From: an uncultured Prevotellaceae bacterium
GTDB taxonomy: Bacteria; Bacteroidota; Bacteroidia; Bacteroidales; Bacteroidaceae
Assembly (NCBI GenBank): GCA_902776195.1
Contig: CACYPF010000009.1
Coordinates: 1-64,000 of the forward strand
Reading direction: 5' to 3'
DNA: 64,000 nt
In this document: positions 42 to 32,333 of the stretch, in pieces
How positions within the stretch are numbered: position 1 is the first letter of the stretch
Layout of the letters: the number at the start of each line of letters is the position of its first letter
Made by a program: the position numbers and the translations under genes
Notes under the pieces: generated by a model
Seen by the model: only the letters and a program-made list of their open reading frames with translations
Database searches by the model: none
What the model was told of the DNA's origin: nothing

Positions 42-87
42 GACTCATAATCTGGAGGTCCCAGGTTCAAGCCCTGGCTGGTCCACA
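42..87 (+). repeat. Left attachment repeat: 3' part of tRNA-Met(CAT)
   Basis: The sequence begins in the anticodon stem-loop (GACTCATAATC, anticodon CAT), runs through the variable and T arms (GGTTCAAGCC) and ends with the acceptor strand CTGGTCC plus A/C. It is identical to 32288-32333. Bases 1-41 do not supply a tRNA 5' half (no GGACCAG acceptor strand or D arm), so this is a fragment and not a functional tRNA gene. It is the expected product of site-specific integration into a tRNA 3' end. Confidence 0.88.
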
Positions 88-96
88 TTGAAAATC

Positions 97-128
97 AAGC
101 ACTTACGAATTTCTCGCAAGTGCTTTTT
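97..128 (+). terminator. Terminator-like hairpin after left tRNA fragment
   Basis: AAGCACTT (97-104) pairs with AAGTGCTT (118-125) and is followed by a T-rich tail. It sits 10 bases after the tRNA-derived repeat, where a tRNA terminator is expected. It would also face the 3' end of the leftward biosynthetic operon. Confidence 0.6.
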
Positions 129-136
129 CTTTTCGA

Positions 137-157
137 GTGACCTTCAGGTGACCTTTT
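137..157 (+). repeat. Left arm-type repeat of the element
   Basis: This 21-bp sequence is repeated exactly at 32154-32174. It contains two TGACCTT units spaced 10 bp apart, one helical turn. Similarity continues for about 12 more bases (GCGAAAA versus CCCGAAAA). A copy just inside each end of the element, in direct orientation, fits integrase or excisionase arm-type binding sites. Confidence 0.6.
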
Positions 158-261
158 TGAGCGAAAAGTGACACTACAGCGGATTATGAAATAGTGTGCA
201 ATTCCATGAGCATTCTTGAAATTGTCATATCGGCTGTAGATACTTAGTAAGTAAGCATCCG

Positions 262-1596
262 TTAATTGTTATCAGAATGTTCAGACTTAATATAATATTT
301 TCTATTAATCTTGCCATTAAAGGTACGTTCAATTTTATCAGCCTTACTATACAATAGCGGTATCTTGTAAGATTCCAACCTTGATTTCAAATGTAGAGCT
401 AATGCCTTTCTATTCAATTCACAGCCTTCCTTCATTACTACTAAAAGTTTTAATGCTTTCCCTGTTATTTTATGGTCAACTGGAATACAAACACAATCTT
501 TGACACCGGCAAAAGACAGGGCCGCATCTTCCACTTCTGTCGGAGCCACCTTAAAACCTCCTACATTGATGACATCGTCCTCACGACCCATCAAATGCAA
601 CATACCGTTCTCATCTATCCTACCCACGTCAGACGTAAAAACAGCTCCATCTCTTAGAATAGTGGCCGTCATCTCCGGATCGCCAACATAGCCTGACATG
701 AGTGTCTCGCCATAACAAATAATCAAGCCCTTATCGGATATGGTTATACGAGAGTGCTTCATCGGTTTTCCCAGACACCCGGCGATACATCTTCCATCAT
801 TATAGTTATATGTACAAATAATTCCTGTCTCCGTTGAGGCATAGGTATTATAGAGTCGAGTATGAGGCAGAAGTCGGCATAGTTCCAGCATGTCAGATTG
901 CGATATGGCTGCCGCACCCGTCTCAATAAATTCCATCTTATCTGCCAATGCTTTTAACTTCTCAGAACTGAGCTGTATCAGCATACGGATACTTGCAGGT
1001 ACGAGAAATGTTGCCATTTTGGCAGCAGGATAGTTAAAAGCCTCGAAGAATTTATTAATGTCTTTTAGCCCATCGACGAGTATAACAGTGCCCCCAAGCA
1101 TGATGACTGGATAAATTTTGGAGAGGCTGCCTATATGGTTTAACGGACCATTGACCACAAAAGCCAAGTCGTGAGTGAAACCCTGTCCGTCAATCAAGTT
1201 CTCCGCATCAGCCAAAATGGTACGATGGCTGATCATTACTCCTTTTGACCTCCCTGTAGTTCCTGTAGTATATAGTATATCCGCAGTCCCTTCAGGTACT
1301 TTATACAAGCACAATTTTTCAGATATTGTCTTGTATGCTTCATCAGGCAGTCTCTTCTCCAATGGTACAGCAACACCCCCTACTTGATGTAGTGCAAAAT
1401 AAGAGACAAGGAAATCAATGGAGGTAACAGCTCGAAGACAACATATCTGTCCACGATCAATATGCTTCAATTCCTCCATTCGCTGAGACACTCTGTCCCA
1501 CAATTCAGCATACGAGTATTTTTCTTCTCCGCAGACGATTGCAGTTTTATGGGGGTGTAAACGTGCGTGCTGTTCTATATAGTCCTCTAATATCAT
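262..1596 (-). CDS. AMP-dependent acyl/aryl-CoA (ACP) ligase of the cluster
   Basis: A 444-residue adenylate-forming enzyme expected to activate a carboxylic acid as an acyl-adenylate and load it onto CoA or an ACP. The P-loop-like TTGTTGRSKGV is near residue 110, the YASTETG motif near 250 and the C-terminal GGFKVAPTEVE hinge region near 350. It is shorter than a typical acyl-CoA synthetase (about 500-550), as is common for aryl polyene ligases. It overlaps the upstream ACP gene by 4 bp and is last in the operon. In APE systems such a ligase loads the aromatic starter on an ACP; that role here is inferred from context. Confidence 0.85.
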   Translation of the reverse strand: MILEDYIEQHARLHPHKTAIVCGEEKYSYAELWDRVSQRMEELKHIDRGQICCLRAVTSIDFLVSYFALHQVGGVAVPLEKRLPDEAYKTISEKLCLYKVPEGTADILYTTGTTGRSKGVMISHRTILADAENLIDGQGFTHDLAFVVNGPLNHIGSLSKIYPVIMLGGTVILVDGLKDINKFFEAFNYPAAKMATFLVPASIRMLIQLSSEKLKALADKMEFIETGAAAISQSDMLELCRLLPHTRLYNTYASTETGIICTYNYNDGRCIAGCLGKPMKHSRITISDKGLIICYGETLMSGYVGDPEMTATILRDGAVFTSDVGRIDENGMLHLMGREDDVINVGGFKVAPTEVEDAALSFAGVKDCVCIPVDHKITGKALKLLVVMKEGCELNRKALALHLKSRLESYKIPLLYSKADKIERTFNGKINRKYYIKSEHSDNN

Positions 1597-1829
1597 ATTG
1601 ATTTCTCTTCTATCTTTTTTTCCACCATAGCCACAATACTATCAAGCGTCTTCAGATTCTTTGGCGTGGCATCAGTAGCTTCTAACTTGATGTTGAACTC
1701 GTCTGATAGCATCATCAGTATCGTAGTGACGCCTAAAGAATCTAATTCACTGAATAAAAAATCAGAATCAAAATCAACTAAAGGAAGGGCGTCTTCCAGC
1801 ATTTTCTTAATCTTTTCTTTCATATCCAT
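1593..1829 (-). CDS. Acyl carrier protein (ACP 3 of cluster)
   Basis: A 78-residue acidic helical protein with the phosphopantetheine attachment motif DSL, Ser31. It carries acyl intermediates as thioesters. It overlaps the AMP ligase by 4 bp and the MMPL gene by 1 bp, so the three are probably translationally coupled. The pairing suggests it is the partner of the adjacent ligase (starter loading), an inference from position. Confidence 0.88.
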   Translation of the reverse strand: MDMKEKIKKMLEDALPLVDFDSDFLFSELDSLGVTTILMMLSDEFNIKLEATDATPKNLKTLDSIVAMVEKKIEEKSI

Positions 1830-4800
1830 TACAAATTAATAATATACGGACTTTTTGATTCATCATTCTCTTTAAGTTCTGTCATATAAGTTATGTTATT
1901 GACAACATTCTCTGCTGCAATGCCTGAAACGAGCAACTTTTCTTCGTCTTTCTCTACCGAGATGACGGTTGCATCGGGCTTTGTCAGCGCCAGGAGCAGG
2001 CTCAACTCTCCCCACCCGCTATTCAGGACAATGATGAATGAAGAGTCAATGGAGTTATACTTTTCGGCCTGACGTTTATAGTTTTTCAGATTTCGCTTGA
2101 CACTGCGAAATATCTCTGTTCCCCTATACCTATATCGATCAAGCACAAATGGGACGTAGTATTCTATCGTTTCATACTGCTTTTTCATCAATTGAAATTT
2201 CTTATTATATAAATTCCGCATCAAGCGTGTACACTCTTTATAATCATGCCCATAATAATCTTTGTCACCATATTTTATCCTATCACCTATTTCAAGCGTC
2301 ACTTTCCCTGGATACGTACATAAGGTATTGCGTGGGAAAACATGATTTACGCCATGAAGATATATGGGAACAGTATCTAAATGCAATTTTTCCGCAAGAT
2401 AAAATGCCCCTTTATGGAAACGCAATATGGACGATTTTTCATTCCTTGTTCCCTCAGGGAAAACGACAATACTATAGCCTTCTTTAACTAATTCAGAAAG
2501 ATGAGGAATATCTGCAGATTCTTGATCGGGAATCGTATAAAAATCCATCCACTGAAAGACTTTCTTTGTAACAAAATGGCTACTGGCATGACTGTTTGCG
2601 ACAATGATAATCTTGGAAGAAACAGCCATCAAGAAAGCAGTATCAAGCATAGACTGATGGTTGCATACAATCACAGCAGGTTTTACAAAATCTTCATCCG
2701 AAGAGTTGATGTAATTAAAATGCACGCCCCAGATATGATTCATGTCATACCAGAAGCACATCCTGACATAATCACGGAAAATACGTTTAGAACGACTTTT
2801 TCCTCGGAATATACCAAATAGTATTCCCCCAAGCAAATAAACTGTGGCTAATTGAATGAAAAAGACAACAGCACTAAATCCTGTTACGAACAACCTTCTA
2901 ATGCTAATCGGTCTTACACGATATGTCCCATTCACTGACACTAACCATTTAAAAATCAAAGGTGGGAACAGATAAGCCATCATCACAACTGAAAACATTC
3001 CGATAATAGTTATTTGAGCCAAAGAATGTAATGCAGGATGCTTGGCAAAAATCAGAGCACCTATACCTATAAACATGATAAGAGCCGAAACGATGATACT
3101 GCTTTTGTAAGATGACAACACTTTACGCCTGTAAGCATACTCGTATTGACAGCCCTCTGTCATAAAAATAGTATAATCGTCGCCCTGACCAAAAATAAAA
3201 GTCGCAAGTATGATGTTAACCACATTAAAGTGTATATCCATGACTGACATGATGCCCAATATCCATATCCAGCTTACAGCCATCGGTATAAACGACAGAA
3301 TAGCCAGTTCTATACTCCCAAAGGAAAGCCATAAAAACACAAACACGATAAGCCCGCAAGCCCAACCAATATAATTGAAGTCGTCTGACAGACGTGTGGC
3401 TATAGACGAATTCATCCCTTGAACATCAAAAGCGTACATTTCCGGATGTTCCTTTTCTATTTTTGCAATGACTTCCTCAACGTCCGATTCGTTAGTATAA
3501 ACCATATCAACGACATTTACCTGATGGGCTATACTATCCACAGAAATATTTGAGGCAAAAACAGTCTCGGTGAGTGGAGAGAAATACTCCATCGGTTTAA
3601 GATTATAATCCGCATGAAGAATTTCAAAAAAATCATCGAATGAGGATTCTTGGAAATTCTCGTTTTTAGCAGAAATCCTCACCCGTCTCTCCATATCTTC
3701 TCCATGCTCAGAAACAAACTTTTTCCACCGGCTGATACGTTTCTCCTGTTCTGCTTGAGAGCACAAGAAATGACTACAACTTCTTCTTCCTTTCACTAAC
3801 CCCTCTTTTTCTAATTGAGCAATTGTATAAGACAATGTCTGACTCATTTCCAAAGAAGAGTCAATGTCAGAAGTACTATTGAAAATGTACACAGTCTGCC
3901 CAGTCATGCTTGACGATATCAACTGTTGGAAATAAGACATATCGTCTTTTTGCTCCTTACTCATATAGTTGATATGATTCATATCGGGATCGAAAACTGT
4001 ATCCCCGCTCAAATATCCAAAAACGATGGTCAATATCAACACGCATACAACTAGCCACCGCTTATTGTCTAAAGATAATTCACTAACTTTAGAAAGTACC
4101 TGAATGTCACGCACCCGCTGTTTCATTTTCAAGGTATGCGGCAAAAATATGAGCACAAATATTATAGTACCGATTAACAATAAGGAACTAAAAAGGCCTA
4201 AATCTCTCAATGCAACAGACTTAAGAGGAACCAAAGCCAGGAATGCGCCAACGGTTGTGATATTGCCAATAATGAGAGGCTTGGATATCTCCTTCAGAGT
4301 CGTTTCCATATTTGGTGTATGCTGCAGGTGAGCGATTAAGTGTAATGGATAATTAACCGCTATACCTAATATCACCGAGGATATGCCTATCACTATTACG
4401 GAAACACTATCATGTAATAAAGCCATGCCTCCCATCGCAAAAAGCCATCCCCACCCTATAGATACAACAATCATCAAGATGCTCCACACTCTGCGGAACA
4501 CGTAAATGAGTAATAAAACAATTAAAATGATTGCAATCGTTATCGACAAAAGGCTGTCTTTCTTTATCTGTGTCGCATTGCCTACGGCAATAACCGGACC
4601 GCCTGTAAGGTGAAAACTTACTGAAGGTATGGCAATGTGTACTTGCCGAGCTATACTATCAAATGTTTCTATCAGTGTTCCATTCTTCTCAGTTTCACTG
4701 GCGCCAAACGGGGAATCCATCATCATGATGGCTCTCTGCATGTCAGGAGTAAAAATATACCCGTCATAGTTCTCAAAAGAGATCGCAGGCATATTCGATT

Positions 4801-5368
4801 GTAGACCAGCTACCACAGGAGTAAACAAATTCAGCGGATCTCTTTGAATATTTTCTGACAACAAACTGGAAGCCGGCAGCATTAGTAATTGCTTGTCAGC
4901 TGCTAACTGAGAGGGAATAAAGTCCGGTTTACATAGAAGACTGTCAATCCTTAAATAATCTGCCGGTGTCAGAAAATACGGAATATTCTGATACACGTAG
5001 GATATCATTTCTGCGACTTGGTTCTGATCCATTTGGTAAGTCAAATTCGAGAATTGGCCGCCTTTCTCCGTCTTTTCAAGTTTCTCAACAAACAAATCCA
5101 CTGCACGAGCTATCGTATCAGGAGCGATTTCCGTTGAATCTGCGTTTTGCGCAATGACTATTATCTTATTGGCTCCTACTAAATCCTGATATACTTTCAG
5201 GGCTTTACTATATTTATTGTTTTCTGGCAAAAAATCAGAGATATCCTCTTTATAAGTCAGGCTGGCCAACAATAGAGCAAGACCCAAAGTAAGAATAGAC
5301 AATGAGAGCCAACAAACCATTCGATGCCCCTTCATATATTCATATATCCCTATCATTTCTGCCGTCAT
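1829..5368 (-). CDS. Trifunctional MMPL/RND transporter - PlsC acyltransferase - methyltransferase-like protein
   Basis: A 1179-residue fusion. Residues 1 to about 850 form an MMPL/RND-type exporter: an N-terminal TM segment, a large periplasmic loop, a bundle of TM helices, a second loop and a second bundle. Around 860-1065 is a PlsC-type acyltransferase with NHQSMLD (about 898-904) and FPEGTR (about 971). The C-terminal 110 residues resemble a class I SAM methyltransferase Rossmann core (NSGWGELSLLLAL, then VISVEKDEE), with a degenerate glycine loop. MMPL pumps are a standard part of APE/flexirubin clusters and are thought to move the lipid product to the outer membrane. The fusion suggests that acylation and export of the product are linked. 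Confidence 0.85.
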   Translation of the reverse strand: MTAEMIGIYEYMKGHRMVCWLSLSILTLGLALLLASLTYKEDISDFLPENNKYSKALKVYQDLVGANKIIVIAQNADSTEIAPDTIARAVDLFVEKLEKTEKGGQFSNLTYQMDQNQVAEMISYVYQNIPYFLTPADYLRIDSLLCKPDFIPSQLAADKQLLMLPASSLLSENIQRDPLNLFTPVVAGLQSNMPAISFENYDGYIFTPDMQRAIMMMDSPFGASETEKNGTLIETFDSIARQVHIAIPSVSFHLTGGPVIAVGNATQIKKDSLLSITIAIILIVLLLIYVFRRVWSILMIVVSIGWGWLFAMGGMALLHDSVSVIVIGISSVILGIAVNYPLHLIAHLQHTPNMETTLKEISKPLIIGNITTVGAFLALVPLKSVALRDLGLFSSLLLIGTIIFVLIFLPHTLKMKQRVRDIQVLSKVSELSLDNKRWLVVCVLILTIVFGYLSGDTVFDPDMNHINYMSKEQKDDMSYFQQLISSSMTGQTVYIFNSTSDIDSSLEMSQTLSYTIAQLEKEGLVKGRRSCSHFLCSQAEQEKRISRWKKFVSEHGEDMERRVRISAKNENFQESSFDDFFEILHADYNLKPMEYFSPLTETVFASNISVDSIAHQVNVVDMVYTNESDVEEVIAKIEKEHPEMYAFDVQGMNSSIATRLSDDFNYIGWACGLIVFVFLWLSFGSIELAILSFIPMAVSWIWILGIMSVMDIHFNVVNIILATFIFGQGDDYTIFMTEGCQYEYAYRRKVLSSYKSSIIVSALIMFIGIGALIFAKHPALHSLAQITIIGMFSVVMMAYLFPPLIFKWLVSVNGTYRVRPISIRRLFVTGFSAVVFFIQLATVYLLGGILFGIFRGKSRSKRIFRDYVRMCFWYDMNHIWGVHFNYINSSDEDFVKPAVIVCNHQSMLDTAFLMAVSSKIIIVANSHASSHFVTKKVFQWMDFYTIPDQESADIPHLSELVKEGYSIVVFPEGTRNEKSSILRFHKGAFYLAEKLHLDTVPIYLHGVNHVFPRNTLCTYPGKVTLEIGDRIKYGDKDYYGHDYKECTRLMRNLYNKKFQLMKKQYETIEYYVPFVLDRYRYRGTEIFRSVKRNLKNYKRQAEKYNSIDSSFIIVLNSGWGELSLLLALTKPDATVISVEKDEEKLLVSGIAAENVVNNITYMTELKENDESKSPYIINL

Positions 5369-5372
5369 GTTT

Positions 5373-6503
5373 TTATTTGTTATCGATAGGGTTTGAATAG
5401 ATACGAATGAAGATTTCTTTCAGTCTGTCCATATCACATGTCTCATACCTCTCAAGTACACTCAAATGATGGATGAACGCATCATACTGCTCGTCTGTAT
5501 ACATAGACCGGTATTTCGTATTTCCATACAACAAATCATGAGCTATATAATTATTGGGGTATAACTTATATGCAGCATTTATTTTCCTGTCAATCAACTT
5601 TGCTACACTTTTATGATACTCATTGTTCGTCTGTTCTTCAAAAGTTCTAAGCTCTTCCACTGACAAAGGTTCGCACAACTCGAAATGCACATTCCCTTTC
5701 GGCTGAAGAATGCCTGTCAGAATACTATTGAGGTCCTCGCCTGGCTTCTTGGTATATTTGGTATATTGCGACTCATATAACTCCAATGCTTTCAACACAT
5801 CACACGATTCCCACTCGTACGAAACTGAAACTGGCACAATATTCAAATCAGCTAAAGCTTTTATCTTGTCCTTGGGTTCACTCATGCAAAACATCTTAAT
5901 GATGCCTTGGTCTGTAGCATCATTCCCGTCTTTTGTCCTTCCATTCCGTTGAGCAATCCACACGGATTGCCCTTTCTCTGTTATCACATACCTAATATAT
6001 TCGGATAAGTGCAATGAAGCTTTATAAAACTCCTTGATATCACCACCCGGGCGTTCTACTCGAAACATCTTATTGCTTTTCCCTACATCGATAACAACAG
6101 GATTCATCATCAAGTTCGCTCCAAATGTTATCTCCGTAGTGTCAAAGCCATTGATTACAAGGTAATATTGCAGCAAACAAGCATCCAGCATAATGTCACG
6201 ATGATTTGACACGTACAGATATTTCTTATTCGGATCAAGCCGCTCTATGCCAGTTCCAGTAAACTCAGTGATGCTGCGGGCAATGATCTGCTCATTTACC
6301 CGTCGCATGGTGTCTAACTGAAATTGTTCTACTGTAGTAAATGATGCAATATTCTTTCTGACATCGTCGATGGGTTCATCTGGATAGACATAAGATGCAA
6401 GAAGTGGAAACGCCTCACAATTAGCCAAACGATGCATAGCAGCAGGAATCTCTTCTTTATAATAAGGCCTGATATCATCAAATTTCGGATTCTTCCTCAT
6501 CAT
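5373..6503 (-). CDS. 1-acylglycerol-3-phosphate-type acyltransferase
   Basis: A 376-residue protein with an acyltransferase active-site motif, NHRDIMLD, near residue 95 and a conserved block IAQRNGRTKDG near 190 that corresponds to the FPEG-type substrate motif in distant glycerolipid acyltransferases. It is predicted to transfer an acyl chain from ACP or CoA to a hydroxyl acceptor at the inner membrane. Its start shares one base with the stop of the upstream hydrolase gene, and the MMPL gene begins 4 bp downstream. The acceptor is unknown; it may attach the polyene or a fatty acid to a lipid anchor. Confidence 0.8.
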   Translation of the reverse strand: MMRKNPKFDDIRPYYKEEIPAAMHRLANCEAFPLLASYVYPDEPIDDVRKNIASFTTVEQFQLDTMRRVNEQIIARSITEFTGTGIERLDPNKKYLYVSNHRDIMLDACLLQYYLVINGFDTTEITFGANLMMNPVVIDVGKSNKMFRVERPGGDIKEFYKASLHLSEYIRYVITEKGQSVWIAQRNGRTKDGNDATDQGIIKMFCMSEPKDKIKALADLNIVPVSVSYEWESCDVLKALELYESQYTKYTKKPGEDLNSILTGILQPKGNVHFELCEPLSVEELRTFEEQTNNEYHKSVAKLIDRKINAAYKLYPNNYIAHDLLYGNTKYRSMYTDEQYDAFIHHLSVLERYETCDMDRLKEIFIRIYSNPIDNK

Positions 6504-7345
6504 TATTTCAATAATTTATTTAACCATTCTATAAATTTATTCTTCCATTCTCTGCTCTCTGTAGAACCTTTATGATTAGATACACCAAAACCATGACCAC
6601 CCGTCTTGTATTGTATATATTCATGACTGATGCCTTTTGCAGTAAGGGCAGAATCAAGAAGTACCGAATTACGACAATCAACTATCGGGTCGTCTTTACA
6701 ATTCACTAAAAAGACAGGAGGGCATTCTTGCGGGATATGCTTTTCTAAAGACAACAAATCACGAAGATATTTGTTTCTTGTTCTTGAATCGCCTAACAGT
6801 CCCCTTCTTGAACGTTTATGGACACAGGCTTCTTCCATGGTGACTACAGGATAAACAGGAACTATAAAAACAGGCCAGTCCTCCTTGCTAAACAGTTCTA
6901 CGGAAGACATTACCAAGTGCCCACCAGCAGAGAACCCCATTGCCCCAATCTTATGAGGGTCAACACCATATTCTGTGCTGTGATTTCTTATATAGCGCAA
7001 TGCTTGTAGCAAATCATCCTGAGGGTCTGGGTAACGATTGCCTCGGAACAAAAGTCGATAATGCAACAAAAAGGCAGGAACATAAGCTGTCCGATAGTTC
7101 AAAACGAAAGCAGATATTCCCTTTGACTGAAGCCATCGTCCAACCTCATGCCCCTCGGTATCGCTGTCATGCCAGAAATAGCTACCACCCGGACACACCA
7201 CGACCCCAATATTGTCCACACCTTCTACAATATAAGGAGACAGCAGAACGGTCTTTTTGCATGAAGTACCTTCCCAAATATTGACTTGAGAATGTATGCT
7301 TGCTGAAAGTAGAACAAACAGGATGATATTGACTAACCTTTGCAT
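6503..7345 (-). CDS. Secreted alpha/beta hydrolase (esterase-like)
   Basis: An alpha/beta-hydrolase with oxyanion motif PGGSYFWHD, nucleophile elbow GFSAGG, an Asp in KDDPIVD and a C-terminal His in GGHGFG. The chosen start is the ATG at 7343-7345, which gives a clean signal peptide (MQRLVNIILFVLLSASIHSQ); the longer frame to 7423 would bury it. It then overlaps the upstream oxidoreductase gene by 13 bp. A relative lies at 54512-55336 outside the element. It probably hydrolyses an ester in the periplasm; a link to the polyene product is inferred only from its place in the operon. Confidence 0.82.
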   Translation of the reverse strand: MQRLVNIILFVLLSASIHSQVNIWEGTSCKKTVLLSPYIVEGVDNIGVVVCPGGSYFWHDSDTEGHEVGRWLQSKGISAFVLNYRTAYVPAFLLHYRLLFRGNRYPDPQDDLLQALRYIRNHSTEYGVDPHKIGAMGFSAGGHLVMSSVELFSKEDWPVFIVPVYPVVTMEEACVHKRSRRGLLGDSRTRNKYLRDLLSLEKHIPQECPPVFLVNCKDDPIVDCRNSVLLDSALTAKGISHEYIQYKTGGHGFGVSNHKGSTESREWKNKFIEWLNKLLK

Positions 7346-12980: not shown

Positions 12981-12982
12981 AC

Positions 12983-15105: not shown

Positions 15106-15108
15106 GTT

Positions 15109-17048: not shown

Positions 17049-17060
17049 ATTTCTTTCGTC

Positions 17061-17480: not shown

Positions 17481-17483
17481 CTT

Positions 17484-18823: not shown

Positions 18824-18830
18824 TGTCAGC

Positions 18831-22035: not shown

Positions 22036-22050
22036 TCTAAAATCAGTTGA

Positions 22051-22782
22051 TTAAGTATACAATCCACCATTAACATTGATAGTTTCTCCTGTAATATAAG
22101 AAGCGTCATCTGACACGAGAAAAGCAACTAAAGCCGCGACTTCATCTGGTTTGCCAAATCTTCCAACGGGGATTAGTTTTTTTAATTCTTCTTCTGGCAG
22201 TTCCTTGGTCATATCAGTCTCTATAAACCCAGGGGCAATTGCGTTAACTGTAATATTTCGAGACGCAACTTCTTGGGCCAGAGCCTTTGTTGCCCCAATA
22301 AGAGCTGCCTTAGCGGCACTGTAATTCACCTGACCAGGAAGTCCTTTAACACCAGAAAGTGATGCTACATTAATTATTCTTCCGCCACGCTTACGTGGCA
22401 TCATATGCTTTAACAACCGCCTTGTAATATAAAAGAATCCATCAAGAGTTGTATCAATGACTTGGTGCCAGTCTTCGTCCGACATCATAAACATCAGTCC
22501 ATCGCGTCTAATTCCAGCATTGTTTACTAAAATCGAAATATAATCATCTGGATGATTCCGCTCCCAAGAATCAATTGCTTCATCTACTCTATTCTTGTCT
22601 GAAACATCGAAAGGCATCAACTCAGCAATTGCTCCTTCTCGTTCCACTAAAGCTTTTGTTTCTTGGGCCGCTTCAATATTCGAATTGAAGTTAATGAGTA
22701 TAGGCATGCCCATTTTGGCCAATCTAATACATATAGATCGTCCGATTCCTCTTGACCCGCCAGTGACTAGAATAAATTTCAT
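22051..22782 (-). CDS. fabG: 3-oxoacyl-ACP reductase (SDR family)
   Basis: A 243-residue short-chain dehydrogenase with the NADPH motif TGGSRGIG (residues 7-14), NNAG near 88, catalytic Ser in ASLSG near 138 and YSAAK near 151-155, and a typical C-terminal ITGETINVNGG. It reduces the 3-oxoacyl-ACP made by the ketosynthases. It is the first gene of the 22.5-kb operon; the 490-bp spacer upstream holds the likely promoter. Confidence 0.92.
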   Translation of the reverse strand: MKFILVTGGSRGIGRSICIRLAKMGMPILINFNSNIEAAQETKALVEREGAIAELMPFDVSDKNRVDEAIDSWERNHPDDYISILVNNAGIRRDGLMFMMSDEDWHQVIDTTLDGFFYITRRLLKHMMPRKRGGRIINVASLSGVKGLPGQVNYSAAKAALIGATKALAQEVASRNITVNAIAPGFIETDMTKELPEEELKKLIPVGRFGKPDEVAALVAFLVSDDASYITGETINVNGGLYT

Positions 22783-23170: not shown

Positions 23171-23273
23171 AATTTATTCTAAAATCTGCAACAAATAAAA
23201 AAAACTTTTATTTAGAATGTAAAAAATAGTAAAATAGTGTTTTTTAGATAAAATGGGCTTTCTCAATTTCGGG

Positions 23274-25490: not shown

Positions 25491-25630
25491 GTGGGGGGTC
25501 TTGGGGGCGGCAGTCCCTGAGCGGAGGTCCAGGAGAGGGTCACTCCTGGTCGGGTTCCAAGGGCAGACAGCCTTTGGCATATTGGGGTAAAATGGCAGAA
25601 TTGACATTATTACCCCTAATATGTTGTGGA
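25491..25630 (-). other. Candidate origin of transfer (oriT)
   Basis: A GC-rich stretch directly upstream of the relaxase start. It holds a perfect inverted repeat CCAGGAG (25529-25535) / CTCCTGG (25543-25549) with a 7-base loop, and runs of C on the relaxase coding strand (GACCCCCCAC). MobV relaxases act at short hairpins close to their own gene. The nick site was not identified. Confidence 0.45.
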
Positions 25631-26221
25631 CTATTGTTGTAGTCCACCCTGCGGCACGCCCGTCTTGTTCCATTCCTTGTCGCGCAGATAGACGAACAGG
25701 TAAGAGCGAGATGCGAGGTCACCTTGCAGTCGCTGTACATTAGCGAACGCTGTTGTTCGTTCATCTGCCGTCAAAAGCTTCCAAGTATCGAATGCTTGCG
25801 ACTCGTTATTTCCAGTCTTGCCGTAGATTTGTTTTATTCGCTCAAAAGACGAGGTGGGGTCATTAGCATTGAAATCGGTTTCACTCTTCTCCTCACTATC
25901 GTTCGCTGTAGAAGCAGGAGGATTGTCGATAGCTCTCTTCGATACATTAGCAGGTCTGGCAGTGGTTTTAGCAGTTCTGCACTTTGCACTCTCACTGCAT
26001 TTACGGCTCTTTTCCTCAGCTGCCGTTCGTAGGGAATCAAGATCCTGGGCAATCAGGTCGAAGTAGGTTTCCAAGCGAAGGTCATCCATTGCAGGGCGTG
26101 TCCCATCGGTAGCATACGCTACGACAGCCTTCACCAGTTTACCTACTTCACTGTTGTTCATTCGTGTACATGCCACGATGAGCACGTTCGATAAAAACGG
26201 AATACGATCAATTGTCTTCAT
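25631..26221 (-). CDS. DUF6291-like accessory protein of the mobilization region
   Basis: A 196-residue protein. Residues 1-60 (NNSEVGKLVKAVVAYATDGTRPAMDD) resemble the DUF6291-type domain found in plasmid and phage replication-associated proteins. The central 75 residues are polar and of low complexity. The C-terminal 60 (SSFERIKQIYGKTGNNESQAFDTWKLLTADERTTAFANVQRL) form predicted helices. It sits immediately upstream of the relaxase, where MobV elements often encode a helper protein. The function is unknown. Confidence 0.65.
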   Translation of the reverse strand: MKTIDRIPFLSNVLIVACTRMNNSEVGKLVKAVVAYATDGTRPAMDDLRLETYFDLIAQDLDSLRTAAEEKSRKCSESAKCRTAKTTARPANVSKRAIDNPPASTANDSEEKSETDFNANDPTSSFERIKQIYGKTGNNESQAFDTWKLLTADERTTAFANVQRLQGDLASRSYLFVYLRDKEWNKTGVPQGGLQQ

Positions 26222-26285
26222 AACAAAACAAATTAAGGGTTATACATTTATTTACCATTACATATTTCAACTATTACTCTCACCA

Positions 26286-27014
26286 TCAGAACACACCTAA
26301 GGCAATTTCCCTTTCCGCCTCAGTTATCATCTCGTCTGTGATGGTGTGGAAAGCCTTGTAAAGGAGATGCTGCCGAGGATCTTCACCTTGCTCTATCCAT
26401 TCACGTACATGGAGTTTAAGAGCAGCAAGACCGCATGGTTGCTTGTCATCAGTCTGAGTCTTCTCTGTGGTGTAGCCATACTTAGCCACCTGACTGCCCC
26501 ACCAATCCTTGAACTTCTTGTTATACTGGATAATGATGTCTTCAGGGTCGAACTCTCGGAAGGTGTCCTTGAATTCAGGATAGTTAGCGAAGTAACAGAG
26601 CAGTTTGACTGGTGTACACTCAGCACCGTTGCGACCGAGGAATATTGCAGCTACATTTGTGCAGACATCCTTGCCAAGTTCTTTACCACTCCTTTCAACC
26701 ATCAGGTAGTACCCCAAGAAATGCTTTACAAAGAGTGCCACATCTGCATCCTTGGTATTGTAGATCAGATTGAGTCGGTTTAATGAAGGAACAACGGTAT
26801 TCACCGCCTTATCAACATGCTCCAGTGCATATCTCCAAGAATCTGGGCCAAAGGCTTTATAGAACTTGTCCAAGGTTGGGTATCTCTGCAAGAATACCAT
26901 TTCACTCTCCGTTAGCTGTTCTAATGGTACGCTGTTCGAGCTCTTCGACAAAATTTCTTGCCTCAGACCTGTTATCATTGCGTCCACATTCTTTGTTACA
27001 TCTATCTGTTCCAT
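26286..27014 (-). CDS. Hypothetical protein of the mobilization/replication module
   Basis: A 242-residue, probably soluble helical protein. I do not recognise the family. Notable parts are LTESEMVFLQRYPTLDKFYKAFGPDSW near residue 35, a region around VKHFLGYYLMVERSGKELG, and FKDWWGSQVAKYGY near 175. With the start at 27014 it overlaps the upstream HTH gene by 113 bp in another frame. An alternative ATG at 26900 lies one base after that gene's stop (TGAAATG) and removes the overlap, at the cost of 38 residues. Confidence 0.6.
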   Translation of the reverse strand: MEQIDVTKNVDAMITGLRQEILSKSSNSVPLEQLTESEMVFLQRYPTLDKFYKAFGPDSWRYALEHVDKAVNTVVPSLNRLNLIYNTKDADVALFVKHFLGYYLMVERSGKELGKDVCTNVAAIFLGRNGAECTPVKLLCYFANYPEFKDTFREFDPEDIIIQYNKKFKDWWGSQVAKYGYTTEKTQTDDKQPCGLAALKLHVREWIEQGEDPRQHLLYKAFHTITDEMITEAEREIALGVF

Positions 27015-27585
27015 TGCTCTTCTTTATGAGGTTCTGTGTATCCTTTGTCCATTTACGGGCTGTAGCCTTCCAGTCAACCATAGGGCTATTGCCCACCATC
27101 CAGTCCTTTGATTCGTAGTAATCATGGAAACGCTGAGGAAGTCCTGCCTTCATCACGTATCCAGCGGGTATCACACATGTTGCCATATAAGACTCGACAT
27201 CAGCAACCGTCGGGATGACCTTCTCTCTTTGGGTCTGTCTGCTGTCTATATCTTTAGTATTATAATGCGTCAAGTCTTCCGTCCGCTTAACCGTCAACTT
27301 ATCCGACCACTCCAATAGGGTGTATTTGGGCGGTACACGGCGTCCACGGCCATTGGTGAACTTGATGAGTCCGGCATCAGCCAACTTTTTCCTGGCTGTA
27401 GTCAATGCCGTTTTGCATACATGCAGGTTGTCGCAGATTACAACCGTAGAACAAGTGAACGGCATCTTCCAACTCCGCCTGTTGCATTCTTTGAGCAAGT
27501 AAGCATAGAGTGCTATTGCTGTTGCAGGAAGCATGTATTCCTCTTGAGCTTTCCAAAACTGATTAAGATAATCTATGTATGTCAT
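26902..27585 (-). CDS. Helix-turn-helix replication-initiation-like protein
   Basis: A 227-residue protein. The first 90 residues (FWKAQEEYMLPATAIALYAYLLKECNRRSW, then a CDNLHVCKTALTTARKKLADAGLIKF helix-turn-helix) match the winged-helix N-terminal domain of plasmid and prophage replication proteins of the DnaD/RepA type. The C-terminal half is polar with WKATARKWTKDTQ. It overlaps the excisionase-like gene by 4 bp. It may recognise an origin during autonomous replication of the excised element; this is inference. Confidence 0.7.
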   Translation of the reverse strand: MTYIDYLNQFWKAQEEYMLPATAIALYAYLLKECNRRSWKMPFTCSTVVICDNLHVCKTALTTARKKLADAGLIKFTNGRGRRVPPKYTLLEWSDKLTVKRTEDLTHYNTKDIDSRQTQREKVIPTVADVESYMATCVIPAGYVMKAGLPQRFHDYYESKDWMVGNSPMVDWKATARKWTKDTQNLIKKSNGTDRCNKECGRNDNRSEARNFVEELEQRTIRTANGE

Positions 27586-27884
27586 TTCTTGATTGGTTTA
27601 TATTCAGACAGCTTACCAGACTTAATCAGGTCATTGACCTCTTGCTTAGAATAGAGATTCTTACGTCCCACCTTCTGACTGCGTAGAAGACCAGACTTCT
27701 CAATACGCCAAAGAGTGGGATAAGAAATGTGTAACTCACCGCAGACTTCGCTGCGATCATAGTAGCCCTCCTCAACAGGGCTATCCATAAGGTTGCCGAT
27801 GTTCTTCTCTGCGAGGCACCGGCTGACAGTCCGATAGATGATGTCTTCGAACTGCTGTTCGTTTAGTACGACAATGTTGTCCAT
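27582..27884 (-). CDS. Excisionase-like HTH DNA-binding protein
   Basis: A 100-residue protein with an N-terminal segment and a MerR/HTH_17-type winged helix (YYDRSEVCGELHISYPTLWRIEKSGLLRSQKVGRKNLYSKQEVNDLI). Such proteins act as recombination directionality factors or as repressors in Bacteroidales integrative elements. It is upstream of, and overlaps, the replication-like gene. Confidence 0.8.
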   Translation of the reverse strand: MDNIVVLNEQQFEDIIYRTVSRCLAEKNIGNLMDSPVEEGYYDRSEVCGELHISYPTLWRIEKSGLLRSQKVGRKNLYSKQEVNDLIKSGKLSEYKPIKK

Positions 27885-28063: not shown

Positions 28064-28951
28064 CTACTTTTTGAAGGTCAGGGATGGAAATTCGTTTATG
28101 AAATCTTTAGACGGTTGCCGTTTAGTAATGCGTTTAGGATCGATGTTTAAGTTATCACATACAGCAGTTAACCAGTCTTTTGTATAAAAGGTTTTCAATC
28201 TCCTAATGACATAAAGGATATTAAGTCTACTTCCTTCGAGATATAATGGAGAGAAAAAAGCATGGGTGACATATTTTTTAAATAGATCTTCATCGGCATT
28301 GGTAACGACCTTTCTTCCACGGAGGAAACTATATAATCGCTGTAAATCTGGGCCATCATCCTTTATTGATTCATAACTGGACATTGTTGAGAAATCAACG
28401 GTTGGTGCTGGGTTTGGATCTGCTTTTTCTTCTGGAATGTTGTTCTCTACGTCTATTGGAGCCTTAGCCTTTTCTTTCGGGCTATCACTTGTAGAATGTG
28501 AAGTCTCTCTTTCTGCGATATAGAACAGAATGCCCTCGTGACGACCGAGGTTTATGGTGTATTGGCGGAACTTGTCCTTGTCCCAGGCACCACTATTCAA
28601 ATCCTCTACTGACTTAAACTTGCTTGCCAAGGTCATGTAATCCTGATGTTCAAGAGGATGTTTCAAGTCATTTCTTCGACAGCCATTGTAAGTATTAGTA
28701 AATCCGTTCACGTACCAACGGCTTATTTGAGACTTGAACAAATCGGGCTCTACTCCTGATAGTTCTCTGTATTTGCATTCTATGTTTTGCAGTAGTTCCA
28801 GAATATCTGCCCTGACCATCGCTTGTACATGCGGTTTCTTATACTCAGAGACAAAGAGAGAATAACCCTCGACTTTCTTTGAGCTGAAGTCCTGATAGTC
28901 GCCCTTGATGATAGGTTTCACCCACTCATGGAGAAAATCATATGCTTCCAT
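28064..28951 (-). CDS. Hypothetical protein of the element
   Basis: A 295-residue protein I do not recognise. It has an N-terminal helical domain of about 145 residues, a charged linker (about 150-200, SPKEKAKAPIDVENNIPEEKADPNP) and a C-terminal domain with YSFLRGRKVVTNADEDLFKKYVTHAFFSPLYLEGSRLNILYVIRRLK, a pattern seen in small accessory proteins of Bacteroides integrative elements. It lies 19 bp downstream of the AlbA/Schlafen ATP-binding gene, so the two may be cotranscribed. A 179-bp gap without a visible gene separates it from the excisionase-like gene. Confidence 0.6.
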   Translation of the reverse strand: MEAYDFLHEWVKPIIKGDYQDFSSKKVEGYSLFVSEYKKPHVQAMVRADILELLQNIECKYRELSGVEPDLFKSQISRWYVNGFTNTYNGCRRNDLKHPLEHQDYMTLASKFKSVEDLNSGAWDKDKFRQYTINLGRHEGILFYIAERETSHSTSDSPKEKAKAPIDVENNIPEEKADPNPAPTVDFSTMSSYESIKDDGPDLQRLYSFLRGRKVVTNADEDLFKKYVTHAFFSPLYLEGSRLNILYVIRRLKTFYTKDWLTAVCDNLNIDPKRITKRQPSKDFINEFPSLTFKK

Positions 28952-28970
28952 ATCGCTTGCTCCTTTTCTA

Positions 28971-30491
28971 TTATATAGCTACATACTTCTGAGTAGGGCT
29001 TTTCGGCGATTCCGGCTCTGTCATTCGAAGAGACTTGTTTAGAAGTGGATCAATATACCTTTTCTTGACTTTATATCTATCGGTCATACCAAGGTGCTCG
29101 CAAATTTCAGATAAAGTCTTTGGCTCTTTGCAGAAAGCAAGGAGCTTTTGCTCATTCTTCTCTTTCTTACTTACTGCCTTTTCGTCATTACTTACTGCCT
29201 TTTTGTCGCTACTTACTGCCTTTTCATCATTACTTACTGCCTTTTTGCCGCTACTTACTGCTTTTTCATCATTACTTACTGCCTTTTTATCGTTAATCCC
29301 TGCCTTTTCTGTGCTACTCCCTGCCTCTAAGGCAGCAAGTGGACGGTTCACACGAACAGTAAACTGGTTCCCCTCCTTGCTGTCAATAAACTCTACATGG
29401 CTGTCTTCGGCCAATACGCGAGGGATGCCTGAGCCTAAACCACGATAAGGCATCGTCTTGGCGCAGAAGTTGGCCATCAAAGGGTTGCGGGCATACGAAT
29501 TGCCCAGTTTCACCTCGTCTATCGTATGGCCACCCATCACGCAGCCTGGATTCACTATTTCCACTCTGTCATCGAAGACCATCAGCCGGATAGCGGCCGT
29601 TTTCAGCAGGTCGATATGTACAAGAGCATTCTGGAGCAGTTCTTCCAGTACGGTCTCAGGAATCTCCAACTGTCCGATAGAGTTAAACGACTGTCCGTTC
29701 TGTGTTCGGCGAAGGCACGATTTCAGCCACATCATAGCTTGTTCGAACATTTCAGGAATAGTACCTTCTATGTCACGGCTGTCACGGTATTCAGTTCCTG
29801 CGATGCTGTTGCCAAAAAACCAAACGGCCTTGATAACAAACATAGGCTTGAACTGTTGCGGGCGTTGACCAAAGAACAACAATCCTGCTGTGGTAAGCCT
29901 TCCTTCCGAATCCGTAATATGAAGATTGTGCAACAACTGATCTTGTGGCACATCAAATTCTGTCATGGGTTTGCCATAGACATTCTGAAAGAAGCGGTCA
30001 AGGGCCAACGTGTCTATGTCTCTTACTGACGTATCTTTCACACTGGCTTCATCAGCATGATATTCACCTGAGTCTTGAAAGAGGCTTAATAGTTCGCTGT
30101 TCTCAGTCACCCGGCGTTTGTCGGCACCTTGCTTCACCCAGATATGACCAGCCAGGTCTTTGTAGGGTTTGTTATGTCCTCTTTGCACGGTTGCCACCAG
30201 AATCATTTTTCCATCTACGTCCACAACGTCTGTCTGGATGTAGATGGTTGGGCGTACCTGTTCATTGGCAGTATTGCCCAGCTCACGGCTTGTCTGTTGG
30301 ATGGCATCGTAGTCGAGGCCAAGGATCTCGCCAGTCTTGTCTTTTACTCCAAACAGCAGGTCTCCACCTTCACAGTTGGCAAAGGCCACCATTTCTGCCG
30401 CTATCTCCTTCTGTGTAGTGAACTGTTGCTTAAACTGCACTCGGCTCGTCTCGCCTCGGCGTATCTTATTCCTTAGCTCTTTTTCTGTCAT
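28971..30491 (-). CDS. AlbA_2/Schlafen-type ATP-binding protein with heptapeptide repeat
   Basis: A 506-residue protein. The N-terminal AlbA_2 domain (RRGETSRVQFKQQF, MVAFANCEGGDLLFGVKD) spans about 1-140. A HATPase_c_4-like domain (LEELLQNALVHIDL, VEIVNPG, GLGSGIPRVL) spans about 260-400. A linker at about 400-455 has seven-residue units (KAVSNDE, KAVSSGK, KAVSSDK), then a winged-helix-like C-terminus with LSEICEHLGMTDR. Such proteins are usual in mobile elements as regulators or RNA/DNA-binding ATPases; a defence role has been proposed for some relatives. The biological role here is unknown. A -7 box (TAATTTTG) lies at 30532-30539. Confidence 0.75.
   Translation of the reverse strand: MTEKELRNKIRRGETSRVQFKQQFTTQKEIAAEMVAFANCEGGDLLFGVKDKTGEILGLDYDAIQQTSRELGNTANEQVRPTIYIQTDVVDVDGKMILVATVQRGHNKPYKDLAGHIWVKQGADKRRVTENSELLSLFQDSGEYHADEASVKDTSVRDIDTLALDRFFQNVYGKPMTEFDVPQDQLLHNLHITDSEGRLTTAGLLFFGQRPQQFKPMFVIKAVWFFGNSIAGTEYRDSRDIEGTIPEMFEQAMMWLKSCLRRTQNGQSFNSIGQLEIPETVLEELLQNALVHIDLLKTAAIRLMVFDDRVEIVNPGCVMGGHTIDEVKLGNSYARNPLMANFCAKTMPYRGLGSGIPRVLAEDSHVEFIDSKEGNQFTVRVNRPLAALEAGSSTEKAGINDKKAVSNDEKAVSSGKKAVSNDEKAVSSDKKAVSNDEKAVSKKEKNEQKLLAFCKEPKTLSEICEHLGMTDRYKVKKRYIDPLLNKSLRMTEPESPKSPTQKYVAI
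29169..29336 (-). repeat. 21-bp coding tandem repeat (eight units)
   Basis: Units starting with ACTTACTGCC (plus strand) begin at 29169, 29190, 29211, 29232, 29253, 29274, 29295 and 29316, always 21 bp apart. Variation sits mainly in two codons and the last two units are more diverged. The repeat keeps the frame and encodes the heptad KAVS-x-x-x in the linker of the AlbA/Schlafen-type protein. Confidence 0.9.
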
Positions 30492-30594
30492 ACCTTAATT
30501 ATATTATAGGCACCATACGGCCTTGTGATTGCAAAATTACACATTTATTGTCATATTATAATCGCTATACTCAAAAAATAGCCGAAATTAACAC

Positions 30595-32088
30595 TTATTT
30601 CTCCACTTCTTTCATCAGTGCCTTACGTTCCTTCGCACTCATGCTCCGCAGTAATTCAAGGAGTTCGGCTTTATTGTCAGCAGGTTTGCTTTCCTTCAGC
30701 AGGTAAGCATTGTATTCCAGCATCTTCTCCAGCGGATAGGTTCCAATATAGTTTGATGTGATGTCACCACTGCTGCTGTGACCCATACTGTCACTGATAT
30801 ATTTATAAGGTACGCGACCCGAATTGTTCAGGTTCGTGGCAAAGCTATGACGTGCCCAGGTAGGTGTGGGCAACTGTTCCAATCCAAGCAGTTTGGCAAC
30901 AATCTCCATATGCTTGCGAATGTATTTGTTGTACCGCTGAATGACCCATATTTCCTTATCGGGTGTGATGCCTTGGCTCATAATGGGGAATACTCGTTGT
31001 CCCTGTTTGGGTTCGTTGGCATACTTGTCAAGTATCTTCTTGATTTCAGGTGTAACGGGGAAGATAACCTCGCTGGCATCCTCATTGCGCTCCCTCGTCT
31101 TATGACGGAGGAATCGCAACTGCTTCCCATGAGTGGCAAAGTACCATCCGTCATATTCCAGACGCAAAGTATCAGCCAGGTTCTGACCGTCGCCGAGATA
31201 CATAAAGAGGAACAAACCAAGATCACGAAAAAGAGCATGCTTCGCCTTTGGAGGATATAGTTCTTTGCCGTTCTCATCCTTTGCCTCGTTTTTCTCCCAG
31301 AAGTCATAGAGTTGACTCATCGTAGTCACATCGAGGAATTCATGCTTGCGACTCGTTTTCTTGTTATACCCAGAGTCCTTGAACATATCCTTGGTGCTGC
31401 CATTGATCAGATTCCTGCTGATGGCAATGTTGACGATGGTGCGGAACGTGCGCAGCACGATACCAATATAGGTCACGCTCAGTTCGTCTTTCTTCATCGT
31501 TTCTGTCCACTTCTGTATGAACGAACTGTCTATGTCGCTAAATTCAACGTGCTCACCATTGTCTTTGATGAACCTGTTTCTCACGTCTTTACCTACTCTT
31601 GCGGTACCGGCCTTGCCACTATCCACTTTCTCCTGAAGGTATTCCTCCCAGATTTGGTAAATACTCGTCGTGTCATCCTTCTTCCCTTGATAGCGGTCTT
31701 GAAGTCTCTTGATAGAGAAATTACCTTCGCTGATAAGCTGGTTGGTCAAGTCTTTTATTTTCTCCATCAACGCTTTCAGTTCATTCCGTTCTGCCAGTTG
31801 GATTCTCCGCCCCGTCTTCTCATATTCGCAGAGTTGAATCCACTCTTCCATCGAGTATTTCTCGCCAAGTCTGAGAAAAGTCTTCTTACCCTCATAGGCA
31901 ATCCTGACAGCAACAGGCAGCGGCTGACTATAATCGCCAGCCTTGCGTATATCAAGGATCAATGAACCAAAAACACTTCCATTCGAGGATGTGAATTTCG
32001 CCAAACATTTCTCGCCTCGGCTACCCTTAGATGGGCTGTTTGAAGCTGAAATTTGGCTTTTAATTGCCTTATTTTTCTCTGATTCCAT
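30595..32088 (-). CDS. Tyrosine recombinase (integrase) of the element
   Basis: A 497-residue integrase, longer than the usual 400. An extra N-terminal arm-binding portion is followed by a SAM-like core-binding domain (about 140-240) and a catalytic domain. Visible catalytic residues are Arg413 and His414 (WARHSFAT), His437 (MGHSSS) and the nucleophile Tyr447 (TSNYIG). The usual first Arg is not evident: the expected place reads MYLGDGQNLADTL, which recalls CTnDOT-type integrases that lack Arg I. The gene begins 200 bp inside the right tRNA repeat. The C-terminal 30 residues form a charged helix. Confidence 0.9.
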   Translation of the reverse strand: MESEKNKAIKSQISASNSPSKGSRGEKCLAKFTSSNGSVFGSLILDIRKAGDYSQPLPVAVRIAYEGKKTFLRLGEKYSMEEWIQLCEYEKTGRRIQLAERNELKALMEKIKDLTNQLISEGNFSIKRLQDRYQGKKDDTTSIYQIWEEYLQEKVDSGKAGTARVGKDVRNRFIKDNGEHVEFSDIDSSFIQKWTETMKKDELSVTYIGIVLRTFRTIVNIAISRNLINGSTKDMFKDSGYNKKTSRKHEFLDVTTMSQLYDFWEKNEAKDENGKELYPPKAKHALFRDLGLFLFMYLGDGQNLADTLRLEYDGWYFATHGKQLRFLRHKTRERNEDASEVIFPVTPEIKKILDKYANEPKQGQRVFPIMSQGITPDKEIWVIQRYNKYIRKHMEIVAKLLGLEQLPTPTWARHSFATNLNNSGRVPYKYISDSMGHSSSGDITSNYIGTYPLEKMLEYNAYLLKESKPADNKAELLELLRSMSAKERKALMKEVEK

Positions 32089-32153
32089 ACCATTACACTT
32101 TAAAAATCCCTTATTTTATCGGTCTTGCAGACTATAGTCGGTTGTCAATTCGG

Positions 32154-32174
32154 GTGACCTTCAGGTGACCTTTT
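32154..32174 (+). repeat. Right arm-type repeat of the element
   Basis: Exact copy of the 21-bp sequence at 137-157, same orientation, 113 bp inside the right attachment repeat and 65 bp upstream of the integrase start. It holds two TGACCTT units one helical turn apart. The location fits both integrase arm binding and autoregulation. Confidence 0.6.
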
Positions 32175-32190
32175 CGCCCGAAAACTGCTG

Positions 32191-32198
32191 CAAATTTA
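32191..32198 (-). promoter_or_regulatory. Possible -7 element for the integrase gene
   Basis: TAAATTTG on the minus strand matches TAnnTTTG and lies about 100 bp upstream of the integrase start. No good TTTG -33 box was seen at the expected distance, so the call is weak. Confidence 0.35.
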
Positions 32199-32287
32199 CG
32201 AAATTCTTGGAAACAGACAGATAGGCTAACGCATTTATTTTCAGTGCTTTAACATTATTTGTAATTTCATGAAATAGGTCAAGAACA

Positions 32288-32333
32288 GACTCATAATCTG
32301 GAGGTCCCAGGTTCAAGCCCTGGCTGGTCCACA
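32288..32333 (+). repeat. Right attachment repeat: 3' part of tRNA-Met(CAT)
   Basis: Identical to 42-87: anticodon loop CTCATAA, T arm and acceptor strand CTGGTCC. The preceding bases do not form a tRNA 5' half. Upstream of both copies an ATTTCATG and a TAACAT are found at similar distances, suggesting that the DNA left of copy one is the right end of a related element. Confidence 0.88.

Follow-up and report, generated by a model that had tools for sequence, protein, structure and literature searches.

A probable integrated mobile element at tRNA-Met with an aryl polyene/flexirubin-like operon as cargo in an uncultured Prevotellaceae bacterium

Borders, mobility genes and cargo of the interval

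We analyse a window of 64,000 nucleotides (positions 1 to 64,000 of contig CACYPF010000009.1, here C9, assembly GCA_902776195.1) from the genome of an uncultured Prevotellaceae bacterium (G000). Two identical 46-bp repeats, at 42-87 and 32288-32333 on the plus strand, bound a 32-kb interval (42-32333) that contains an integrase, a relaxase and a large biosynthetic operon, and this observed structure is confirmed. In all probability, the interval is an integrated mobilizable element with exchangeable cargo, represented here by an operon of aryl polyene (APE)/flexirubin-like type.

The repeat comprises the 3′ 45 nt of tRNA-Met(CAT) and one further base. It is not a product of chance, since all 23 of the 24-mers that have a second same-strand copy over 1 kb away within the 64 kb come from it. 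The complete tRNA-Met(CAT) gene of G000 lies on another contig (C15:102-176) and, because ARAGORN finds no tRNA in the window, neither core copy adjoins the 5′ half of the tRNA. Inside the cores, the 17-nt arm-like motif GTGACCTTCAGGTGACC occurs exactly at 137-153 and at 32154-32170, within 46-nt copies that are 83% alike, and an arm match is present at the left end of the four other complete elements described below. The first-pass annotation of this DNA had reported the perfect tRNA-Met repeats, the matching arm-like repeats inside both ends and an integrase about 200 bp inside one end, and all of these are borne out.

The named genes of the element are all on the minus strand, those for mobility comprising a relaxase, an excisionase-like protein, a replication-initiator-like protein (weak match) and an integrase. 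The tyrosine integrase (30595-32088; PF13102 above and PF00589 just below cut-off; phrog_1) starts 199 bases inside the right repeat. Next to it lie a 295-aa protein and a SLFN/AlbA_2 protein (28064-30491), an excisionase-like helix-turn-helix protein (27582-27884; TIGR01764 below cut-off; phrog_7735/66), and a stretch encoding a DUF6291 protein, a 242-aa protein and a 227-aa protein weakly resembling DnaD/replication initiators (25631-27585). The SLFN/AlbA_2 gene contains a 21-bp repeat array at 29147-29347, which is likely a length-variable coding repeat. The MobV-type relaxase is probably encoded at 23274-25466; the listed open reading frame (ORF) continues to 25673, and we place the start at 25466 because the longer frame is broken in relatives. 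The long ORF scores 28.8 bits against Pfam Mob_Pre (cut-off 25.5) and the window copy 99.0 bits against NCBIfam MobV NF041497 (cut-off 100). No PDB match was found for the relaxase, and no viral contig carrying it was confirmed.

Upstream of the relaxase gene, at 25605-25647 on the minus strand and overlapping the end of the DUF6291 gene, a hairpin with an 8-bp stem is followed by a 21-nt conserved block; by position and form it is a candidate origin of transfer (oriT). Nine aligned members of the family share AACATATTAGGGGT(A/C)ATAATG right after the hairpin. All 8 pairs form in seven of the nine, and 7 of 8 in the genomes G189 and G007, where the same position is unpaired; two pairs of the G007 stem are altered on both sides. 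The single-strand fold has a z of -3.4, with 1 of 200 shuffles equally good. A relaxase, probably of MobV type, with an oriT candidate, as proposed at first pass, is present, and a relaxase (Mob_Pre above cut-off) and/or oriT of its own is one mark of an integrative mobilizable element (IME).

Another is the absence of a mating pore. No conjugation-pore or phage structural family was found among the scanned proteins of the interval (30 ORFs with Pfam, 20 with NCBIfam and 8 backbone proteins with PHROGs), and the type IV secretion genes that an integrative and conjugative element (ICE) would carry are accordingly missing from that set. All such classes share a tyrosine integrase at a tRNA gene, which would fit a self-transmissible ICE or a phage satellite as well; given the relaxase and the lack of pore and phage structural families in the scanned proteins, we consider either identity exceedingly improbable.

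The cargo operon spans 22.5 kb of the minus strand (262-22782) and has 22 genes by the count made in the G035 copy described below, and the earlier description of a polyketide/fatty-acid-type operon between the borders holds. Its first gene encodes a FlxB ketoreductase (22051-22782; NF053542 400 bits, cut-off 340). There follow a ketosynthase (20696-21859) in which a gap deletes the region holding the conserved GH motif, a variable 173-aa protein for which no family was found (20139-20660), and a FlxJ-family methyltransferase (19098-20138) whose copy in the window, which has a short gap, scores 549 bits against NF053543, 11 bits short of the cut-off of 560 that the intact G035 copy exceeds with 612 bits. 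The central part encodes a 4HBT thioesterase, a FabZ-like dehydratase (weak match; 17484-17957, no PDB match), an LpxL-type acyltransferase and a second acyl carrier protein (ACP) (together 17061-19073), and ketosynthases with an ACP (13324-17048); for the ketosynthase at 15369-17048, in its G035 copy, the top PDB hit is 6qsp_A, an APE ketosynthase. Beyond these lie a FabA/Z-like dehydratase, a LolB-like protein, LolA and an EamA-like membrane protein (11613-13336), the dehydratase and the LolB-like protein matching below curated cut-offs (LolB2_flexi in both the window and the G035 copy). The remaining genes encode a glycosyltransferase-acyltransferase (10327-11632) that is split by gaps in the window and forms a single 500-aa frame in G035, two CrtI/CrtD-like flavin adenine dinucleotide (FAD) oxidoreductases (7333-10334; below NCBIfam cut-offs), an acyltransferase and an alpha/beta hydrolase (5373-7423; PF01553, PF20434), an MMPL exporter fused to an acyltransferase (1829-5368; PF03176, PF01553) and an acyl-CoA/ACP ligase (AMP-binding, PF00501; 262-1596).

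The hallmark of an APE cluster is the joint presence of ketosynthase/chain length factor, ACPs, ketoreductase, dehydratase, ligase, methyltransferase, acyl- and glycosyltransferases, LolA and MMPL export. The operon has this gene content, with weak dehydratase matches, and looks like a whole pathway for a yellow, carotenoid-like pigment; its gene content predicts an aryl polyene of the outer membrane as the product. A full flexirubin product is not supported. The tyrosine ammonia-lyase that marks flexirubin clusters was not detected, a search for aromatic ammonia-lyases (PF00221) being negative in both G000 and G035 (assemblies about 94% complete) and positive in 5 of 14 control genomes, so the starter of an aryl polyene, if that is the product, would need another route. 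For the dialkylresorcinol genes darA/darB, a search of the element returned one ACP_syn_III match below cut-off (20.3 bits, cut-off 24). The label of APE/flexirubin type given at first pass thus stands in its APE-like part and not as a complete flexirubin pathway. The operon is also low in G+C, a property that the first-pass annotation had proposed to compare between 87-32288 and 32334-64000; since the copies in G007, G122, G044 and G040 (4 of 4) likewise have lower G+C than their fetched surroundings, we regard this as intrinsic to the operon and reject it as evidence of foreign origin or transfer.

The unit, its empty site and its relatives

The metagenome-assembled genome (MAG) RUG037 (G035; OMWH01000016.1), a second species, has a complete tRNA-Met gene at C26:17536-17610 and cores at 17566 and 50150. 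Between these cores lie the operon and the backbone genes in the same order as in the window, with the 173-aa gene alone unmatched, so that the interval behaves as a unit at an intact tRNA-Met, as had been supposed. Over 17 one-kb bins from 2,001 to 19,000 the two copies are 97.9-100% identical (median 99.4), and backbone positions 27.8-30.3 kb are 99.2-100% identical. The sampled chromosomes of G000 and G035, in contrast, share 88.25% identity over about 99 kb (26 stretches, each 800 bp or longer; range 71-96%, best 95.7%), in a table that counts one 2.5-kb region twice (locus L016 overlaps the window) and whose C15 row, starting at base 22, takes in some 80 bp of the end of the element. This sample enlarged an earlier one of 5 stretches and 10.8 kb, which gave 89.9%. 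The left flank of the element is 86% identical to G035 and the right flank 69-75% where aligned, and three bins reaching into the right flank give 69-84%. With most of the cargo at 98-100% and the chromosomes at about 88%, the ancestor of the cargo must be much more recent than that of the chromosomes, which suggests that the pathway was shared recently and not inherited.

A search of 399 genomes of the genus with a right-flank protein matched 22, G000 included, and a complete tRNA-Met was present beside the gene at two of the 26 loci scanned in these genomes. In G365 the left flank (73-79% identical to C15), a tRNA-Met (205144-205218) and the right flank are contiguous and constitute the unoccupied site for which the first-pass annotation had proposed a search in relatives; site-specific recombinase, attachment repeats and empty site together define the unit. 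The T arm of this tRNA-Met (L213, G365:C20, 15144-15218) differs from that of the carriers with pairing kept, which suggests that the element supplies the 3′ half itself. In G334, two complete tRNA-Met copies enclose a different element, about 10.8 kb long and with an integrase of its own (L211, G334:C16, 8338-19197).

The location of the operon in other genomes bears on whether it is an ordinary chromosomal APE locus flanked by incidental tRNA-Met repeats. FlxJ occurs in 66 of 200 genomes of the genus, and in 3 of the 66 (window, G035 and G007) the contig that bears it also has a match to the relaxase of the element (E <= 1e-30) no more than about 6 kb away, a lower bound given the short contigs; these counts speak for a chromosomal locus. 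Among G001-G047, 16 genomes are FlxJ-positive and 13 of these have a match to the tRNA-Met core. The two lie within 40 kb of each other in G035 only; G016 and G024 have them on one contig, separated by about 0.8 Mb, and in the remaining 10 they are on different contigs. The operon is thus found with different flanks, as anticipated, and none of the 13 was seen to carry it at that chromosomal place without integrase and relaxase. Near seven other flx loci (G197, G122, G212, G032:C60, G044, G040 and G431:C73) two home-made profiles detected no integrase in the stretches fetched, a weak negative, as the first profile missed the G007 integrase. With the operon enclosed by both borders in G035, the site empty in G365 and other cargo between these borders in G032, MA2016 and G189, a purely chromosomal locus is already contradicted, and we give it very little credence.

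Integrase matches at E <= 1e-60 occur in 18 of 200 genomes of the genus. The backbone string of integrase, 295-aa protein, excisionase-like protein, 227-aa protein, 242-aa protein, DUF6291 and relaxase is found at 7 of 13 loci on named contigs (L191, L193-L196, L198 and L199), including G035 (L193) and the isolate Prevotella sp. MA2016; of these seven, FlxB stands beside the relaxase only in L193. Besides G035, six further genomes have the backbone, MA2016 among them. Complete elements measure 32.2 kb in the window, 32.6 kb in G035, 22.9 kb in both G032 and MA2016, and 16.6 kb in G189, and three of the four outside the window (G032, MA2016 and G189) hold other cargo. In MA2016 it encodes a Pif1-like helicase and caspase-domain, CHAT and AbiH proteins, and the ORFs of G032 agree with these in their starts and, with few exceptions, in their lengths. 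In G431, where the left end was not found, the cargo comprises an ArsP permease, an ArsR-type regulator and a radical S-adenosylmethionine protein. Three of the 13 named relatives are named for a ruminant organ, and RUG names presumably denote rumen genomes; the gut or oral host range suggested at first pass accordingly gives way to relatives that point to ruminants, not to the human gut or mouth.

Backbone identities change partner along the element. Over four 500-bp steps from 26.3 to 28.3 kb, G431 is 98.0-100% identical to the window and G035 84.4, 88.0, 99.2 and 99.8%; from 31.3 to 32.3 kb, MA2016 is 95.8-98.0% and G035 88.0-88.8% identical. On these values the backbone reads as a cross-species mosaic of G035-, G431- and MA2016-like pieces. 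In G007 the operon adjoins a relaxase (about 60% identity), DUF6291 and an integrase of a different type, and from this arrangement G007 appears as a second type of flx carrier, with its left end cut by the contig start. The locus (L141, G007:C42, 1470-10175) runs from the flx operon to an SLFN-like gene, MobV, DUF6291 and the different integrase. About 340 bp upstream of flxB are common to the window, G035 and G007 only, among 16 contigs compared.

The left border probably adjoins a second element. Bases 1-41, where the contig begins, are probably the right end of that element: bases 18-87 are 88% like the element's own right end (32264-32333) and bases 3-133 are 89% like G037:C49 86-219. As neither core adjoins a whole tRNA and 1-41 resembles a right end, the likely order is tRNA-Met, second element, core, this element, core, chromosome. 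On C15 a left end directly follows the complete tRNA, 81% alike over 42-167 and with other arm sequences. In G189 another integrase lies about 0.4 kb beyond the left core, a tandem layout that is openly seen. The second element was not assembled, and it was not found at the six other integrase loci of G000, where no match spanned the element ends in the stretches fetched.

Further observations concern the surroundings of the array. In MA2016 the right core of the element has a further integrase immediately beyond it (L229, 5104-6384), which suggests stacked elements there too. About 11.9 kb of C15 (L013, 2000-13929) are missing at that place from G035, G037, G334 and G365. Window positions 52474-60341 are 95.7% identical to G035:C26 8757-888, on the opposite side of tRNA-Met in G035, and G037:C56 and G365 place the homologs as G035 does; we read this as a rearrangement in G000, perhaps an inversion around the element array.

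Mobility and competing explanations

For the reading of 42-32333 as an IME, mobility is what we infer from the gene content and from known IMEs (PMC5704250; here and below, papers cited by PMC number are drawn on in part). The integrase and the excisionase-like protein, with arm sites at either end, would recombine the 46-bp cores and free the element as a circle; the MobV-type relaxase would nick the oriT that the hairpin marks upstream of the relaxase gene; and the conjugation system of a helper within that cell would carry the strand into a recipient, whose tRNA-Met the element would enter while restoring the 3′ end of the gene. The slot between the relaxase and the left end would hold the exchangeable cargo.

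Several results weigh against this reading. Neither a circle nor excision or transfer was observed. As to a helper, the single marker searched, TIGR03783 (Bac_Flav_CT_G), which we take to be TraG of Bacteroidetes conjugative elements, was absent from G000 and G035 and found in one of six genomes searched (G189, which reached the cut-off that none of 14 named controls did). The proposal that the pathway travels by mobilization gains a second species carrying the unit, and the mobilization step itself stays a prediction. Scores against NCBIfam MobV are 95.9-99.0 bits in 4 of 4 members scored, 1-4 below the cut-off. Base 1 of the window is base 1 of contig C9, which puts the left border 42 bp from the contig end, and assembly error is a general risk because, of the 13 named relatives, only MA2016 is without a MAG or uncultured label. 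Six stretches of 23-87 bp present in the G035 cargo are missing from the window copy. Identity to G035, finally, is uneven: it is 97.4 and 95.5% in the first two kb, 96.7% at 19-20 kb, 69.5% at 20-21 kb, and 84-100% along the backbone in 500-bp steps, with 88-89% near the integrase. The shared unit was therefore not moved once and left untouched.

Such unevenness would also arise if related IMEs were resident in both lineages and the operon had been swapped between them by homologous recombination, following transformation, transduction or transfer on another vector, with the IME as holder and not as vehicle. The identity of most of the cargo against the 84-96% of several backbone stretches fits this account, as does the backbone mosaic. 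The 173-aa protein is 24% identical to its G035 counterpart, between neighbours at 97-99%, and 81% identical to the G007 copy; this allele was therefore replaced by recombination, and such loci do get reshuffled. A swap would still require an incoming element or element DNA, however, for which an IME gives a ready route; the backbone at 27.8-30.3 kb is as similar as the cargo, and backbone pieces are shared with other Prevotella too. On balance, we think recombination into a resident IME unlikely.

The six gaps (10572, 11224, 11651, 11979, 19856 and 20881) affect the glycosyltransferase-acyltransferase, a dehydratase, the methyltransferase and one ketosynthase. For the four longer than 50 bp the missing sequence is also present in other relatives, and for the 48- and 23-bp gaps no match beyond G035 was found. 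They fit either assembly gaps or decay, and we lean towards assembly. A decaying, immobile island would be expected to show such lesions, which split the glycosyltransferase-acyltransferase and delete conserved parts of the ketosynthase and the methyltransferase. Against decay, the integrase, excisionase-like and relaxase genes are all open, both cores and both copies of the 17-nt arm motif match perfectly, visual inspection of the gap junctions showed no microhomology, and strain mixtures could break assembly at such sites. Decay of the window copy is thus a possibility with some substance that we nevertheless doubt, and the IME remains the preferred reading.

Significance and comparison with known systems

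We see an even chance that a broader picture holds, in which a recombining family of tRNA-Met IMEs in ruminant-associated Prevotella serves as a cassette carrier with interchangeable modules (an aryl polyene pathway; CHAT/caspase-like/AbiH/Pif1; permease/ArsR), two or more integrase types have tied aryl polyene operons to this lineage of relaxases, and the pigment is a transferable envelope trait of the rumen Prevotella guild. One IME backbone carries defence-like, permease and biosynthetic cargo, and mobilized cargo could explain the patchy distribution of FlxJ. Now that its borders are defined, an empty site is known and the backbone has a cultured host, the movement of large envelope pathways between commensals by mobilization becomes testable.

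APE clusters are among the commonest biosynthetic clusters of rumen genomes (2,800 of 14,814 clusters in 8,160 genomes; PMC8241843), and in Escherichia coli APE is linked to oxidative-stress protection and biofilm (PMC8253772). The first-pass view that APE and flexirubin clusters are mostly chromosomal needs correction, as APE on islands and plasmids is already known in Proteobacteria (PMC8253772): clusters are noted on pathogenicity islands of Enterobacteriaceae (PMC8253772) and on a genomic island in Frischella (PMC10104596), genes of a hybrid of arylpolyene and nonribosomal peptide synthetase (NRPS) type occur on Vibrio plasmids (PMC12824646), and three arylpolyene clusters are counted among 81 putatively transferred human gut clusters (PMC12806405). 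Among the literature matches listed, judged by titles and abstract starts, no description of an APE or flexirubin cluster on a Bacteroidales IME was found, which is no proof of absence. What appears new within those matches is that APE/flexirubin-like cargo is found on such an element together with defined borders, an empty site and, in a second species, a copy shared recently.

The cargo resembles known pathways to differing degrees. Nine of 12 coding sequences of the APE stretch on the Enterobacter plasmid p1MP4m4 match the operon (blastp E <= 1e-3), namely the methyltransferase (46%), two ACPs, thioesterase, glycosyltransferase, acyltransferase, dehydratase, LolA and ligase (weak). The other three, a chain length factor and two hypothetical proteins, have no match in the operon, whose CrtI-like oxidoreductases and esterase are in turn not annotated in the plasmid stretch. 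For the APE cluster of Enterobacterales (E. coli CFT073) island mobility has been suggested (PMC8253772), whereas the vehicle proposed here is an integrated IME. With the flexirubin clusters of Chitinophaga pinensis and Flavobacterium johnsoniae the operon shares ketosynthases, reductases, dehydratases, thioesterases, LolA, a glycosyltransferase and an exporter (PMC3992019), as well as FlxB- and FlxJ-family matches (NCBIfam). It differs in that those clusters include the tyrosine ammonia-lyase FlxA, no counterpart of which was found in G000 or G035, and a DarB of β-ketoacyl-ACP synthase III type, not recognised in the element (PMC3992019).

As to the vehicle, the canonical IMEs of Bacteroidetes are NBU1, NBU2, Tn4555, Tn4399 and cLV25, and IMEs with MobV relaxases are already known, Tn5520 being an example (PMC5704250). 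The element described here shares with them a tyrosine integrase, a relaxase, the lack of a transfer pore and an expected dependence on helpers, and tandem integration at one site has likewise been described (PMC5704250). In contrast to the MobP relaxases of the five canonical elements, its relaxase is of MobV type, and unlike Tn5520, which inserts in AT-rich regions, it occupies tRNA-Met (PMC5704250); a 22.5-kb biosynthetic operon as cargo also sets it apart from the IMEs of that source. In carrying a large adaptive operon on an integrated element it resembles the type VI secretion loci on ICEs of Bacteroidales, which differ in being self-transmissible and in encoding a secretion system instead of a pigment pathway (PMC8102008).

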